Shown: piece by piece, positions 46,280-52,494 of the stretch
Layout: each line of letters begins with the position of its first letter
Numbering within the stretch: position 1 is the first letter of the stretch
Assembly (NCBI RefSeq): GCF_007746795.1
Contig: NZ_CP036343.1
Span: 7,011,029-7,075,028 of the forward strand
Direction: 5' to 3'
Length of the DNA: 64,000 nucleotides
DNA from: Gimesia algae
GTDB lineage: Bacteria; Planctomycetota; Planctomycetia; Planctomycetales; Planctomycetaceae
Made by a program: the position numbers and the translations under genes
The notes under the pieces: model-generated
What the model was told of the DNA's origin: nothing
What the model saw: the letters and a program-made list of their open reading frames with translations, nothing else
The model's database searches: none

Positions 46280-47692
46280 TCAGTTTTGCGGATTGGGGAC
46301 CGGCAGTTGTGCACCGACCTGTTTGAGATGCTCCTGCAGCCGCCGTTCAAGCCGGGCGGTGAGTTCCGGGTACGTCTTTGAAATATCGCTGGTCTCACTC
46401 AGGTCGTCAGCCAGGTTGTAGAGTTCATCGTGGCCGTCTTCATAATAATGGATCAGCTTATACTCGCCGACACGAATGGCTGAATAAGGAACGCCGATGA
46501 ACACGTTGTAATGTGGATAATGCCAGTAAAGGGCTTCGCGGTTGAGTGTCGCGGCGGGGTCTTTCAGCAGGGGAACCAGGGAGAGTCCGTCGACGCTCTG
46601 ATTGTGGGCCGCGTTGCCTTTAACGCCGGTGATGTTCAAAATCGTCGGATAAAAGTCCATGGTGATGACAGGTTCCTGACAGACAGAGCCTGCGGGAGTG
46701 ACGCCAGGCCAGAGCACGATGGCAGGCACGCGGGTCCCCCCTTCCCAGTGTTGCCCCTTCTCGCCGCGGAGGGGATCGTTATTACTGGTTTTGCGGCGGA
46801 CTCCGCCATTATCGGATGTAAAAACAATCAGCGTGCGGTCCGCGATGCCACTCTCTTTCAGTTGGGCACGGACGCGGCCGATGGCTTCATCGACGCTTTG
46901 AATCATGGCGGCGTACTCGGGATTTTTGTGCCGTTTACCGGCGGGTAAGCCTTTATACTTCTTTACCAGATCGGGGCGGCCCTGAATGGGGGAGTGCACG
47001 GAATAGAACGAACAATACAGAAAGAAAGGTTTATCCTGCTGCCCGCGGATGAGTGCGACCGCTTCGTCGGCCATGCGATCGGTGAGATAACGATCCTGCC
47101 GCTGTGCTTCCGTCAGACTGCTGTCCCACTTCATCGCATCACCGCCATAGGGGAAGTGATAACTGCGGGGCAGACCACGATTCGTCCCGCTGATGTTGAC
47201 GTCAAAGCCATGATCCTGCGGAAGATTCCCGCGGCCGCCCAGATGCCATTTGCCGACATGAAACGTCTGATAGCCGGCTGTGCGCAAGGCCTCGGGCAGC
47301 GTCGTGTATTTCTGATCCAGATGTTTTTTCCATCCGGGCGGCTTCAAAGGGAAATCGGTGTAGGACTTGGCCCAGCCGGGAATCCAGTCGGTCAGATGTG
47401 TGCGTGCGGGATACATGCCGGTCAGGAGCGCACCCCGGGTTGGCGAACAGGCATTACAGGCGGAATAGTTCTGCGTGAACTTCATCCCCTCAGCAGCGAG
47501 TTGATCGATGTTCGGACTCTGGTAGAAGTCACTGCCATAACAGCCCAGATCGGTCCAGCCCAGATCATCAACGAGGAAGAAGACCACGTTCCAGGGCTTT
47601 TGGTCTGCGGCGTGTGACGTTCCTGGGACAGCAAACATCGACGATAACAGGAGCACAGCCTGTAAAACCAGTAACAGCATGCGATACATCAT
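46280..47692 (-). CDS. Secreted sulfatase
   Basis: A 470-residue type I sulfatase with a signal peptide (MLLLVLQAVLLLSSMF core). VDDLGWTDLGCYGSDFY near residues 41-57 provides metal ligands; CSPTRGALLTGMYPAR at 82-97 contains Cys82 for formylglycine conversion; VFTSDNGG near 265 completes the metal site. The LYNLADDLSETSDIS element near 425 is the usual sulfatase C-terminal subdomain. The second ATG pair at 47689-47692 begins the signal peptide; the frame runs further upstream. A GntR-type regulator lies downstream. Glycan target unknown, perhaps an arylsulfatase-A type substrate. Confidence 0.92.
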   Translation of the reverse strand: MMYRMLLLVLQAVLLLSSMFAVPGTSHAADQKPWNVVFFLVDDLGWTDLGCYGSDFYQSPNIDQLAAEGMKFTQNYSACNACSPTRGALLTGMYPARTHLTDWIPGWAKSYTDFPLKPPGWKKHLDQKYTTLPEALRTAGYQTFHVGKWHLGGRGNLPQDHGFDVNISGTNRGLPRSYHFPYGGDAMKWDSSLTEAQRQDRYLTDRMADEAVALIRGQQDKPFFLYCSFYSVHSPIQGRPDLVKKYKGLPAGKRHKNPEYAAMIQSVDEAIGRVRAQLKESGIADRTLIVFTSDNGGVRRKTSNNDPLRGEKGQHWEGGTRVPAIVLWPGVTPAGSVCQEPVITMDFYPTILNITGVKGNAAHNQSVDGLSLVPLLKDPAATLNREALYWHYPHYNVFIGVPYSAIRVGEYKLIHYYEDGHDELYNLADDLSETSDISKTYPELTARLERRLQEHLKQVGAQLPVPNPQN

Positions 47693-47968
47693 CAGTTCTT
47701 TTCTCACTCCTGGTTGGAACTCAGAGATCAGACTTGAACACAACATGATCTGACCTATCGTAACAGGTTTGAGATGCGGAAGCATTCGATAAACAACTTA
47801 AAAGCGATGAATGGACAACAGTTGCAGTAGTGAATTATCAAATTTCGGAAAGAGTTGACAAAGTGAATTGGTCGTATTGGAATTGTCGGTGACATGCTGT
47901 TTCGGTTAGCATGACGGATGTCAGAGTCACCCGCCGAATGATTATGTTCCCTTCGAAAGTCAACTACC

Positions 47969-48664
47969 ATGCTCCAGAACTGTTTCCTGTTTCTGTTCTC
48001 CTGTCTCTGCCTGGTCCCGATAAAAGCGACTGCCGCGACGGTGATTAACGCGGGTGTGGGTGGAAACCGGAGTTCACAACTCCTGAAGCGACTGGACCGC
48101 GATGTGCTGGCGAAAAAGCCGACGACGGTGGTGCTGATGGTGGGCACGAATGACCGGCTCAACTCGGGCGGGTTCATCGACATTCAAACCTATCGGAAGA
48201 ATGTGGAATCGCTGATCGATCAGATCGAAGCAGCCGGCGCAAAAGTTTTGCTGATGACACCTCCCACGTGTCTTCCCGAGCTGCTGTTCAATCGACATGA
48301 CCGTAAGAAGTATGACGATCAATCACCGATTGAGCGGATGCAGGAAGTACGAAGCGTGCTGCTGGATTTGGCCCAACAGAAACACGTGGGCCTGCTGGAT
48401 TTCCACGAATATCTGATCCAACACAAGATTGCCGACGATCAGAAAACGAGCATGCTCCGCAACCCGGCGAACAGTGGCGTGAAGGATGGCGTGCATCTGA
48501 TTCCCGCGGGATACGAGCTGCTGGCAAAGCTGGTCGCCGAGAAGCTTCAAGCAGGTGAATTTGATACGACGACGGTTGTCTGTTTCGGAGACAGTTTGAC
48601 CAAAGGTTCTGCGAAAGCGAATTACCCGGCGTCTCTGCAGACGATTCTGAATACCGGGAAGTGA
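47969..48664 (+). CDS. Secreted SGNH hydrolase in circularly permuted order
   Basis: A 231-residue protein with a signal peptide (residues 1-23) and all SGNH hydrolase blocks, but in permuted order. Block II VINAGVGGNRSS starts immediately after the signal peptide (Gly31-Asn33), block III VLMVGTND is at 56-62 (Asn61), block V DGVHLIP at 173-179 (Asp173, His176), and block I CFGDSLTKG, holding the nucleophile Ser209, is near the C-terminus at 205-213 followed by YPASLQTIL. In standard members GDSL comes first and YPxxLxxxL leads into VINAGVGGN. The C-terminus thus ends exactly where the mature N-terminus begins, as in a circular permutation. It is divergent from the sulfatase; esterase substrate unknown. 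Confidence 0.85.
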   Translation: MLQNCFLFLFSCLCLVPIKATAATVINAGVGGNRSSQLLKRLDRDVLAKKPTTVVLMVGTNDRLNSGGFIDIQTYRKNVESLIDQIEAAGAKVLLMTPPTCLPELLFNRHDRKKYDDQSPIERMQEVRSVLLDLAQQKHVGLLDFHEYLIQHKIADDQKTSMLRNPANSGVKDGVHLIPAGYELLAKLVAEKLQAGEFDTTTVVCFGDSLTKGSAKANYPASLQTILNTGK

Positions 48665-48702
48665 CAACAGGTCAGCTGGCATAGTTAAAAGGAGTACACA
48701 CG

Positions 48703-49140
48703 ATGGATGAGTTCATGCAGGCGGCGATTGAAGAAGCCGAAAAAGGACACGATGCAGGAGGCGTACCCATCGGGTCGGTGCTGGTTCACGAAGGCAAAAT
48801 CATCGGCCGCGGACACAACCAGCGACAGCAGAAAGGAAGCGCGATTCTGCATGGCGAGATGTCGGCATTGGAAGATGCAGGCCGGCAGCCGGCCCACGTG
48901 TATCGTAACTGTGTGATTTACACAACGCTCTCCCCCTGCCCGATGTGCAGCGGCGCGATTCGCCTGTACCAGATCCCCCGCGTCGTCATCGGCGAGAACC
49001 AGACCTTCCTGGGTGACGAACGCCTGCTGAAATCGAGCGGCATCGAAATCGAAGTCCTGCAGGACCCACACTGCATTCAACTGATGGAAGAGTTCATCGC
49101 CGCCCACCCCGAGATGTGGAACGAAGATATCGGGGAGTGA
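48703..49140 (+). CDS. Cytosine deaminase of the yeast Fcy1 type
   Basis: A 145-residue zinc-dependent deaminase. His50 and Glu52 in LHGEMSALE and Cys79 and Cys82 in SPCPMCSGA are the zinc ligands and proton shuttle. The sequence follows fungal cytosine deaminase over its whole length: GGVPIGSVLV, GRGHNQRQQKGSA, YTTLSPCPMC, IPRVVIGEN and the C-terminal WNEDIGE all have direct counterparts in yeast Fcy1, while the fold differs from the large amidohydrolase CodA of most bacteria. Deamination of cytosine to uracil is therefore the most likely role. It begins 38 bases after the SGNH gene. Confidence 0.88.
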   Translation: MDEFMQAAIEEAEKGHDAGGVPIGSVLVHEGKIIGRGHNQRQQKGSAILHGEMSALEDAGRQPAHVYRNCVIYTTLSPCPMCSGAIRLYQIPRVVIGENQTFLGDERLLKSSGIEIEVLQDPHCIQLMEEFIAAHPEMWNEDIGE

Positions 49141-49274
49141 TACACGGGTAAAATTTTCTTAGCAGCTCTGATGACGATACTACAGACCTGCTTTTCTGTG
49201 CGATTCCCTGGCAATCATGGAAATGTGTCATTGGAAGGAAGAGCATCTTCACAAGCTTTATAGAGATTTGCAAA

Positions 49275-49376
49275 AACCGGGGCTAATGGTGAACTCCTTG
49301 CAGTCGACTGTGTGACAGAAGATTGAACGCCGATTTGTGAATCAACAAGATCAGCCGCACGGCGTTAGCCGCGGTT
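49275..49376. repeat. Repeat-like element with inverted ends
   Basis: AACCGGGGCTAA (49275-49286) and TTAGCCGCGGTT (49365-49376) are inverted copies with one mismatch, enclosing about 78 bases that include a short GCCG-CA-CGGC hairpin at 49354-49363. The right end, reading AACCGCGGCTAACGCCGTGC on the minus strand, resembles repeats I associate with planctomycete intergenic regions. No second copy is in this window, so its status as a dispersed repeat is an expectation, not shown here. The whole 305-base gap between 49140 and 49446 has no gene. Confidence 0.4.
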
Positions 49377-49445
49377 CCTGTCCACTTCATTTGGCCTGCA
49401 TAACTTGATTGCCTTTTACAAAGTCTCATTCGAATTGAGAAGCAA

Positions 49446-49991
49446 TTACCAGGACTGAATCATCTCATCACCGCGATCAAGTACTTCGCGAATGGCAGTT
49501 ACCAGTTCATCGAGGGTATGAAGGCTTGTCGTTGAAAACCCGAATGATTGTGGTTCCTTCTGCCGGGAAGCAATTGCCGGTCTGACAACAGCGAACTGAA
49601 AACTCGGCTCTAATTGATCGACGTGCAGATCGCTGATCAGGTCCACGTCCCGTGCCACCTTACAGGCTGGGACATCAAAGAATTGCGCGATCGCTTCTCT
49701 TAGCTCGAGTAACAGCGAGGTATCTTCGCATGGTCTGGCTGACAGAAACTGTTCGTCGGTTGAATCCCATGAGGCGAGTAAATTGCCACGGACTTTCTTT
49801 ATCGTGGCAGAATGCCTGGCAAAGTCCCGGCTGCCCAGCAGAACCGCGGCAAAGAATGTGCAGAAGGCAGGTATCGAGGCCCCCACCAGCCGTGCGATCC
49901 AGGGCCCATCTGTAATAAAGAGTGAGACCACAAATCCGATCACGAACGGCACAACAGCCAACAGTCCGGAAAATATCAAGAGGAATCGCAT
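49446..49991 (-). CDS. Membrane protein with ACP-like domain lacking the serine
   Basis: A 181-residue protein with two N-terminal membrane spans (about residues 2-26 and 32-52) and a cytosolic domain. From about residue 95 the line LREAIAQFFDVP, then VARDVDLISDLHVDQLEP, follows acyl carrier protein helices I-II: in ACP the site reads DLGxDSL, and here Gln replaces the serine that carries phosphopantetheine. The domain therefore cannot be charged in the usual way, if it is an ACP relative at all. Similarity is by motif reading only. It stands alone between the cytosine deaminase and the sialate O-acetylesterase. Confidence 0.62.
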   Translation of the reverse strand: MRFLLIFSGLLAVVPFVIGFVVSLFITDGPWIARLVGASIPAFCTFFAAVLLGSRDFARHSATIKKVRGNLLASWDSTDEQFLSARPCEDTSLLLELREAIAQFFDVPACKVARDVDLISDLHVDQLEPSFQFAVVRPAIASRQKEPQSFGFSTTSLHTLDELVTAIREVLDRGDEMIQSW

Positions 49992-50067
49992 TGATCAGTC
50001 ATCTCCCCCACTGAGTACGCCGAACGGGATCAGGACTATTTTACATAACAATGCAAAGGCAGCCTCT

Positions 50068-52248
50068 CTACTGAGTCTGCACCAGCACACGTAATCGCTT
50101 CACTTCGTATTGTGAGGCGTTGGACATGAAGGTCCAGTCGCGGGTTTTTCCGGTACTGTTGCCGATGCCGACGTCTGCGCCGGGTCCGCTTTTCCACTGG
50201 TTGATGGCGAAGATCGTCTGCTTCGCCTCATAGTTGTGGACCTGCATGCAGCCGTAACCGTCTGAAGGCTCGGATGGTTCATCGCCGAAATCCCAGAGGG
50301 TCGCACTGGCGTTGGGGATGTTCTTCGCATTCAATGGGCCGTAGTTGCTCGGCCAGAATTCGATGTTGCCGCCGGGCAGACCTTTACCCGTCACGATACC
50401 GGGCACATTGGAAACCACATTGAGATTATTCACCTTCGTTTGAAAGCTGGCTTTGCTCTCAAACGTGGGCACAGCAATTTTAGTGATATCAGTGGTGAAG
50501 GCGTCCATGGAGACATACACGTATTGCGTTTCTTCACCGATCTTCTGCAGCTCCAGGAAGTAGGCGATGCGGCCATAGGGCGTGGTAAAATCCTGACTCG
50601 AATTGAAAGTGTAATTGATTTTGCTGCCCAGATTTTTCAAATCAAGATCGTAGACCAGTGTGTACTCTTTGGATTCTTCGACTTTGAGTGACATCCAGTC
50701 GCGCTGGGGCACATCGCCTGCCCGGAAGGGAGTCGCTGGCAGACCTTCTTTGTTGGACAGATTGGGTTCTGCCAGTTTATTCCAGCCGAACCGCATGGCG
50801 GCGGCCTGCTTGACTTTGGGAGAAGACAGAATCACCGAGTCCCCTTCAATGACAGCTTCGGCGGGAACGAAGTCGGTTTCTTCGCCGATGATTTCGAACC
50901 AGTTGAGCGGTTTACCATCGCGCGAGACGAGTCCGCTGCCGACATGATCGAAGGTCACACGCAGTTTGGCGCCTTCTTTCTTAAGCGATTTGAAGACCGG
51001 CCCGGAATGCACAAGGCCTTTCTGGCCGTATGTGTTTGCCAGCGCGATCAGTGCCAGACGATCGCCGACGTCCTGCTTGTTGGTGGGATGGATGTCCTTC
51101 AAATCGCCGATATCATGAATCACGACCTGCCCGGTATGGGGAATCTCCAGCGCCTTGTTCTGCGCTTCCCAGAAGACAGGCAGAATACTGGGCGATTCGC
51201 TACCGTACTGAAAGGGAGCGATCTGAACGTAAAGGAAAGGAAATTCTCCCTGGTTCCAGACTTCGCGCCAGCCGCCGATGAGGGCTTTCATTTTTTCATA
51301 GTAAAGCATGCCTTCGCCGTGATTGGATTCGCCTTGATACCAGATGGCACCACGAATGGCGAACGGAACGAGGGGATGAATCATACCGTTATAAAGCGTG
51401 GTGGGAGAACTGCGACTGGTGAGCGGCTGAATGGCCGTGGGATACGCAGGAGGCGGCGCGAGCGGCGTTTCCGCTTTCAATGCCGTTTTTGCTTCCGCCG
51501 TCCAGTTTTCCAGGCCTTTCAGATAATTTCCCAGAGTAGCCTGATAGGCGGCGGTTGCGGGGTTGGTGAGTTGCACCTGTTTCTCGATGTCGGCCAGCGC
51601 GGGAACTTGCGCAAATCCTACAGGGGGCGTCCAGGGTTCGATGCGAGTGCCGCCCCAGGAAGAATTGATCAGCCCGATCGGGACATTAAGTTCCCTGTGT
51701 AATTTGAGACCGAAGAAATAACCGGCTCCGGTATAGCTGCCTACGGTTTCGGGCGAACAGACGGTCCAGGCGGCATCGACGTCATCTTGTGGAAAGCCAT
51801 GGGGAACCTTGGGAATTTTGATGTGACGAATCAGCGGGTAGTTGGCGGCCGCCTGTTCCTGTTCGAAATTGTTGCTGCGGGAAACGGGCCATTCCATGTT
51901 GGACTGTCCCGAGCAGAGCCAGACTTCGCCGATCAGCACGTCTGAAATTGTGACCGTGTTTTTTTCTCTGACCATGAGCGTTATCGGATCGCCGATCTGC
52001 TGAGGTGGCATTTTCACCATCCACTCGCCTGCAGCGTTGGCAACTGTAGAAGTAATAGAAGTGCCCAGTTTCACCGAGACCTCATTCCCCGGATCGGCCC
52101 AGCCCCAGACCGGAAGGGGCTGCCCACGCTGCAGAACCATGTGATCCCCAAAGATATGGGGGAGACGGACTTCCGCCTGGGTCTGTGCGGTCACACAAAA
52201 CAGAACAAAGCAGGTCACAGCGAACAGTGAGATGCGATTTGATTTCAT
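50068..52248 (-). CDS. Secreted sialate O-acetylesterase-like protein (DUF303)
   Basis: A 726-residue protein with a signal peptide (core ISLFAVTCFVLFCVTAQT). The SGNH-like catalytic part has GEVWLCSGQSNMEWPV (Ser in GQSNMEW is the nucleophile), SSWGGTRIEPW, GAIWYQGESNHGEG and, near residue 435, QDVGDRLALIALANTYG, the classic pattern of sialate O-acetylesterases. The last 230 residues form an extra beta-rich module, perhaps for carbohydrate binding. The ATG at 52248 begins the signal peptide; a longer upstream frame is not protein-like. It likely removes O-acetyl groups from sugars, not necessarily sialic acid. Confidence 0.9.
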   Translation of the reverse strand: MKSNRISLFAVTCFVLFCVTAQTQAEVRLPHIFGDHMVLQRGQPLPVWGWADPGNEVSVKLGTSITSTVANAAGEWMVKMPPQQIGDPITLMVREKNTVTISDVLIGEVWLCSGQSNMEWPVSRSNNFEQEQAAANYPLIRHIKIPKVPHGFPQDDVDAAWTVCSPETVGSYTGAGYFFGLKLHRELNVPIGLINSSWGGTRIEPWTPPVGFAQVPALADIEKQVQLTNPATAAYQATLGNYLKGLENWTAEAKTALKAETPLAPPPAYPTAIQPLTSRSSPTTLYNGMIHPLVPFAIRGAIWYQGESNHGEGMLYYEKMKALIGGWREVWNQGEFPFLYVQIAPFQYGSESPSILPVFWEAQNKALEIPHTGQVVIHDIGDLKDIHPTNKQDVGDRLALIALANTYGQKGLVHSGPVFKSLKKEGAKLRVTFDHVGSGLVSRDGKPLNWFEIIGEETDFVPAEAVIEGDSVILSSPKVKQAAAMRFGWNKLAEPNLSNKEGLPATPFRAGDVPQRDWMSLKVEESKEYTLVYDLDLKNLGSKINYTFNSSQDFTTPYGRIAYFLELQKIGEETQYVYVSMDAFTTDITKIAVPTFESKASFQTKVNNLNVVSNVPGIVTGKGLPGGNIEFWPSNYGPLNAKNIPNASATLWDFGDEPSEPSDGYGCMQVHNYEAKQTIFAINQWKSGPGADVGIGNSTGKTRDWTFMSNASQYEVKRLRVLVQTQ

Positions 52249-52494
52249 CAGGGTTTCAATTCGTTTGGAGTAATACGTGAGTAGCTGGCAGGAAACAAAG
52301 AATGAGGAATGAATCCTGCTCTCTATTAAAATGATCACCAAATTTTGCACACGACGCAAGGGAAATGCCTGAGATTCACAACTATCGCTCAATACCAAAG
52401 CAATCTGCGCGACGGTGTTTCAGTGAGACGGAAGATATCGGCTGGCGCTCTGCCGGACCTGATACAGGGGGAATTGGGCAACAGTACTTCTGTT

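Follow-up and report, generated by a model that had tools for sequence, protein, structure and literature searches.

A gene on a 64,000-nt stretch of the Gimesia algae genome (hereafter the window) encodes a protein that has all of SGNH blocks I, II, III and V, including their Ser, Gly, Asn and Asp-His residues, but departs from the canonical S-G-N-H order, in which GDSL lies close to the start of the domain. This raises the question whether the gene product is a true circular permutation of the SGNH fold, as a first-pass annotation of the locus had proposed, or the result of an assembly error or of gene decay. The translation bears out the annotated block order II-III-V-I, followed by YPASLQTIL, and places Ser209, Asp173 and His176 in the 231-aa chain as described there. 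The catalytic blocks hence read G-N-DH-S, and because of this order we file the protein as a permuted variant and not as a standard SGNH member. The start of the gene is clear, as had been claimed, with an in-frame stop codon separated from the ATG by nine codons. The chain begins with a hydrophobic stretch before block II, which is also seen in the Gimesia rows of our alignment of family members (A1); judged by eye it is probably a signal peptide, and the protein would accordingly be secreted. A six-frame motif scan of positions 46400-47968 found no block I, II, III or V motif, in agreement with the statement that nothing upstream encodes a second GDSL block, and a hidden upstream copy was thereby rejected. 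In the same kind of scan over positions 48665-50200 the sole match was an unrelated GNST on the opposite strand at 50163. All features are listed in Table 1.

Table 1. Position of the permuted SGNH gene, its sequence blocks and its neighbors in the window.
Feature	Position	Strand	Basis
Permuted SGNH hydrolase gene, 231 aa + stop	47969..48664	+	translation, orthologues, AlphaFold2 model
Likely signal peptide, residues 1-23 (...ATAA before TVINAG)	47969..48037	+	by eye
Block II VINAGVGGN, residues 25-33	48041..48067	+	translation, alignment A1, model
Block III GTND, residues 59-62	48143..48154	+	translation, A1
Arg109-His110 pair	48293..48298	+	alignments A1, A3
Block V DGVHLIP, residues 173-179; contains Asp173 and His176, proposed triad members	48485..48505	+	translation, A1
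Block I CFGDSLTKG, residues 205-213, now C-terminal	48581..48607	+	translation, A1, selection analysis
Ser209, proposed nucleophile	48593-48595	+	within block I
YPASLQTIL, residues 219-227, near chain end	48623..48649	+	translation, model
Sulfatase (PF00884) neighbor, context only	46280..47785	-	Pfam
Cytidine/deoxycytidylate-type deaminase (PF00383) neighbor, context only	48703..49140	+	Pfam
SASA-type carbohydrate acetylesterase (PF03629) neighbor, context only	50068..52398	-	Pfam

The altered order is also apparent when the protein is compared with known SGNH sequences. The Pfam profile Lipase_GDSL_2 (PF13472) aligns residues 23-184 with profile positions 33-178 of 178 (E 5e-22), and the front of the profile has no counterpart ahead of this match. 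As Pfam matches residues 23-184 only, readers who expect an N-terminal GDSL would call such genes truncated, which matters for annotation. In a phmmer search against PDB sequences the chain of 1yzf was matched by two pieces of the query in swapped order, residues 23-193 on chain residues 40-186 with 47.2 bits and residues 203-214 on chain residues 4-15 with -1.0 bits, the latter alone not being significant. NCBIfam gave matches far below cut-off only, to TesA and AxeA1. We then exchanged head and body of the domains in silico and scored the best single domain against a canonical profile built from 23 canonical SGNH domains; the test comprised the 16 permuted and 23 canonical proteins of the first tree described below, with the canonical proteins scored leave-one-out. 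For the window protein, rotation lifted the score from 131.3 bits to 157.3 bits. A gain of 17.8-34.6 bits was obtained for all 16 permuted proteins, and a loss of 12.1-46.6 bits for every one of the 23 canonical proteins.

We used AlphaFold2 with an input alignment of 17 rows, made up of 3 permuted proteins and 14 canonical protein fragments from phage contigs, and obtained a model of the window protein with pLDDT 82.7 and pTM 0.84. It contains five strands (24-27, 53-57, 92-96, 141-143 and 202-207), and the last of these is followed by helices at 209-212 and 219-229. Strand 24-27 at block II is the counterpart of canonical strand 2, and YPASLQTIL lies within the predicted helix 219-229, which corresponds to the canonical first helix. 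The protein is thus predicted to have the canonical five strands of the SGNH fold, the first of them now last in the chain. Residues 155-161 and 165-171, beside the catalytic loop, have pLDDT values <50, and the mean for block 171-180 is 71. For the phage protein described below, these 17 sequences were used again with the row of that protein on top, and the resulting model has the same layout (pLDDT 87.3, pTM 0.87). Superposition was sequential and therefore covered the body, with the moved segment outside: the body of the window model fits acetyl xylan esterase 7ddy with Z 17.9 and 2.8 A over 158 residues (from target residue 53) and 1yzf with Z 17.4 and 2.5 A over 156 residues (from target residue 35). 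Structure prediction had been suggested in the first-pass annotation as a check and came out in its favor as to the order of the strands, the SGNH-type alpha/beta/alpha fold being indicated by the model as a whole and by superposition for the body only. No solved structure spanning the junction was seen among the 57 matches of the A2 profile (E ≤1, judged by matched ranges), and the same permutation was not recognised among the best rows of the Foldseek and VIA lists against the PDB or of Foldseek against BFVD.

In a different arrangement the C-terminal GDSL segment would complete the active site of a neighboring subunit in a swapped oligomer, or the protein would be a folded but non-catalytic binder of acylated glycans. 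The position of the moved segment at the chain end, behind a short linker, would permit swapping, to which a monomer prediction is blind. Yet a confidently predicted strand occupies the moved segment in both monomer models. Moreover, the residues of the proposed active-site blocks are invariant in all 20 rows of A1, and the sole change of GDS in the diverse set (A3) is a GAS in L079, where the Ser is kept. We consider swapping or loss of catalysis quite improbable.

How widely the permuted order occurs was examined within Planctomycetota, in 170 genomes of the family and in samples of the class (397 genomes) and the phylum (392 genomes). A search with the complete protein gave a match at 1e-6 in 150 of the 170 family genomes; the non-permuted family matches that were read (L003-L006, L030-L038) carry block I or a degenerate form of it in front. 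A junction profile, reaching from DGVH to GDSL..YP and applied to the family with a threshold of 1e-5, matched 24 of the 170 genomes. The permuted order was found in 15 of the 17 genomes of Gimesia, the genus of the window, in 5 of the 6 genomes of its sister genus g14, and in G042, the only family genome outside these two genera to have it. The three partial junction matches were not permuted genes, since G016 and G020 are canonical and G159 holds a remnant. We aligned 20 permuted proteins from family genomes (A1); the one named relative, PAJV01000052.1 from Gimesia sp. SAT87, is 89% identical to the window protein. The class sample of 397 genomes added no permuted gene. The phylum sample added G562 with two genes, G629, G696 and G703, and a second profile recovered the same genes from it. 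A class search around G629 (120 genomes) contributed G808, while no further permuted gene was found around G703 (59 and 23 genomes) or G562 (29 genomes). The gene in G696 is cut by the contig start so that only its end is visible. In G703 the permuted frame is open to the contig start, where it enters a repeated WPLAAGR stretch (L081:1-100), and its true start is therefore uncertain. Other partial-junction matches (L061, L062, L069, L074-L076, L122, L125-L127, L131) have block I before block II or are otherwise canonical; L123, L124, L130 and L133 lie outside the set read. The total is 27 permuted genes from 26 bacterial genomes, plus a single one from a viral contig; the homologue check proposed for the locus brought up the permuted order in these.

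Some copies are damaged or absent. In the single-contig genome G026 (L021 / L096:5759-6391) the gene is interrupted by an in-frame stop directly after GDSLT, with loss of the last helix, and no junction match was obtained in two Gimesia genomes (74-76% complete) and in the g14 genome G046 (93% complete), which indicates that the permuted gene can be lost. In G159 the end of a short ORF (L084:6262-6420, also L060) resembles no part of the permuted proteins but their C-terminal tail (CPDSLTKGSENANYPAYL), and the ORF is apparently the remnant of a lost copy.

The interrupted copy in G026 and the remnant-like one in G159 are what could be cited for an assembly join or a decaying, rearranged pseudogene. 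Against this, intact copies with this order occur in many genomes that were assembled independently of one another, including several that consist of a single contig, and the body is under purifying selection: dN/dS of the body is 0.03-0.21 in 10 orthologue pairs within the genus, and in the same pairs the moved tail of 25 residues shows few replacements (pN 0-0.088 vs pS 0.12-0.47). Orthologues and purifying selection together rule out an artefact or pseudogene, the chance of which we regard as negligible; two of the three findings that the first-pass annotation named as refuting the permutation are hence not borne out. The proteins have diverged considerably, with some permuted sequences in A3 only 30-34% identical to the window protein. 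The Arg109-His110 pair is invariant in all 20 rows of A1 and all 10 rows of A3, and is possibly part of the substrate site; in L129, which was found later, HH takes its place. L129 is the most divergent copy read and also departs from the others in block II, which reads NRGRCGQ. In the canonical body rows of alignment A6 the stretch with the Arg-His pair is mostly gap.

The viral gene is a permuted SGNH ORF of 231 aa on IMG/VR contig 3300028595_000028 (L086/L089; L086:1506-2201). Its product aligns collinearly with the window protein across the junction (E 2e-41, with 36% over 206 residues) and is without an evident signal peptide. The gene is preceded by an ORF of 588 aa that matches fn3 weakly, and on its 3' side are an Amidase_3 endolysin and a DNA polymerase exonuclease. 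Among the 8 listed of 1517 records, the closest matches of the exonuclease are in phages of human feces, Bacteroides and Cellulophaga, and our guess is therefore that the phage may infect Bacteroidota. Ahead of block II the phage protein carries LLLNKNKF, which reads as if it extended the C-terminal helix (FKNLIS) of the same protein and might be a leftover of duplication and trimming. Seventeen other viral contigs with SGNH genes that were read (L063, L066-L068, L087, L088, L101-L109, L111, L115) have block I before block II; L110 is the L068 contig again, and L064, L065 and L112-L114 are outside the read set. Junction queries gave no plasmid match and one weak match among the INPHARED phages, which on reading was in canonical order. 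The full-length phage protein matched 40 phage and 10 plasmid records, and among the 20 of the 40 phage matches listed, four that reach just into GDS are canonical on reading.

Regarding the origin of the permutation, we calculated two trees with 16 or 17 representatives of the 28 permuted genes known. The first was built on rotated domains, with 16 permuted and 23 canonical proteins, and has all permuted ones on one side of a branch with support of 98/97 and 98% of 200 bootstraps. In the second, from which the moved segment was left out (17 permuted and 23 canonical proteins), they do so with 92/84 and 94% of 200 bootstraps. The canonical sequences L006, L061, L062, L069 and L076 were left out, and L007-L009, L064, L065, L068, L074, L075, L088, L104, L106 and L109-L114 were unused. 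Both trees would fit a single origin, to be read with caution in view of long branches and thin canonical sampling. Alternatively, the permutation could have arisen repeatedly in SGNH proteins, with the lineages converging on the same cut. The strong divergence of the permuted sequences would allow for this, as would the moderate support of the body-only tree with its long branches and 23 canonical rows. However, the permuted rows are on one side of the branch in both trees and have the Arg-His pair in common, L129 excepted, and we therefore judge repeated origin unlikely and retain the single origin. The most likely course is one event that took place before the lineage reached several groups of Planctomycetota and at least one phage. 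The route may have been a duplication followed by loss of the outer halves. In G870 one ORF of 518 aa (L132:673 onward, minus strand) holds two SGNH-like halves, one behind the other; it is a possible model of an intermediate in permutation by duplication.

A link to carbohydrates is suggested by the neighbors of the window gene, a sulfatase upstream and an SASA acetylesterase downstream, and by the fusions in G562 given below. In 12 neighborhoods viewed, the neighbors differ between genomes apart from the deaminase gene, recognised by the start of its sequence, which is no more than 3.5 kb away in 5 of the 10 Gimesia neighborhoods; a conserved operon is thus ruled out, and any substrate we name is a guess. 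Several permuted domains are fused to others. One of the two genes in G562 is joined to CBM_4_9 and the other to DUF6259, and in three of the five g14 genomes (L025:655-2142, L026, L027) the permuted domain stands behind a domain of about 280 residues, which has no Pfam match and a weak NCBIfam match to polyhydroxyalkanoate depolymerase. We infer that the window protein is a secreted carbohydrate O-deacetylase that works alone, as its neighbors are not conserved, and that it would remove acetyl or similar acyl groups from a polysaccharide outside the cytoplasm.

Taken together, we regard the gene as a true circular permutation because the order is kept in 26 genomes and the viral contig, the body is under purifying selection and the moved segment has few replacements, rotation improves its score, and a well-scoring AlphaFold2 model puts the strands in the permuted order. 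The gene product is very probably a secreted, circularly permuted SGNH/GDSL-type ester hydrolase in which strand 1, the nucleophile elbow and helix 1 have moved from the N- to the C-terminus. The mature chain would then start at canonical strand 2, and a short linker at about residues 194-201 would join the old chain ends, with the parts most likely reassembling into the ordinary five-strand fold. Ser209 of block I, now the last block, would form the triad with His176 and Asp173 of block V, and the oxyanion hole would be completed by the block II Gly and Asn61 of block III. This triad geometry and the hydrolase activity itself are predictions. A natural permutation with all catalytic motifs intact allows one to test cleanly to what extent an enzyme relies on the order of its chain.

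Circularly permuted SGNH domains have been described for AlgJ/AlgX, PatB1 and WssI (PMC9487903, PMC4148444, PMC10302187, PMC5697884), a precedent that the first-pass annotation did not mention, and the following comparison holds for those parts of the papers that were available. Where an order is given it is H-S-G-N, with Y or D in place of N, and the domains of the AlgX family and WssI are linked to polysaccharide acetylation (PMC9487903, PMC4148444, PMC10302187). The window protein shares with canonical SGNH/GDSL enzymes (PF13472; TesA 1ivn, AlAXEase 7ddy, Axe2 3w7v, 1yzf) the four canonical block motifs and the alpha/beta fold of the body, but differs from them in having block I and the first helix at the C-terminus and the order G-N-DH-S. 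Like the AlgX family and WssI it has a circularly permuted SGNH domain; the latter are cut before block V and read H-S-G-N, with Tyr, or in WssI Asp, for Asn, whereas the window protein reads G-N-DH-S. AlgJ/AlgX have GTSYS as block I, DxH as block V and a cap domain, as far as their available descriptions go, in contrast to GDSL, GTND and DGVH without an added domain here. The DHHW family, represented by PatB1 with its Ser-His-Asp triad, likewise has a permuted SGNH core, but is described with the H-S-G-N order of AlgX, KDS and DHHW motifs and extra beta elements, from all of which the window protein differs. Neither a GTSYS or KDS block I nor a DxH or DHHW block V is found in it, the corresponding motifs being GDSLTKG and DGVH, and no AlgX or DHHW model is among its 8 Pfam matches (E ≤1, a list from which weak ones may be filtered). 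A description of the order G-N-DH-S was not found in the parts read of the papers covered. On the best reading of these sources the permutation point of the window family is new and lies elsewhere than in AlgJ/AlgX, PatB1 and WssI. As the permuted SGNH proteins described in them share another cut, most of them with altered motifs, this suggests that nature has opened the SGNH fold at a second place. The chances seem to us about even that the full picture holds, namely a further natural SGNH permutation, apart from that of AlgX/PatB1, cut between blocks I and II, with canonical motifs and the nucleophile last, which arose once, spread in Planctomycetota in the form of polysaccharide deacylases, some free-standing and others fused, and passed between bacteria and phages, being encoded beside a lysis gene in the latter.
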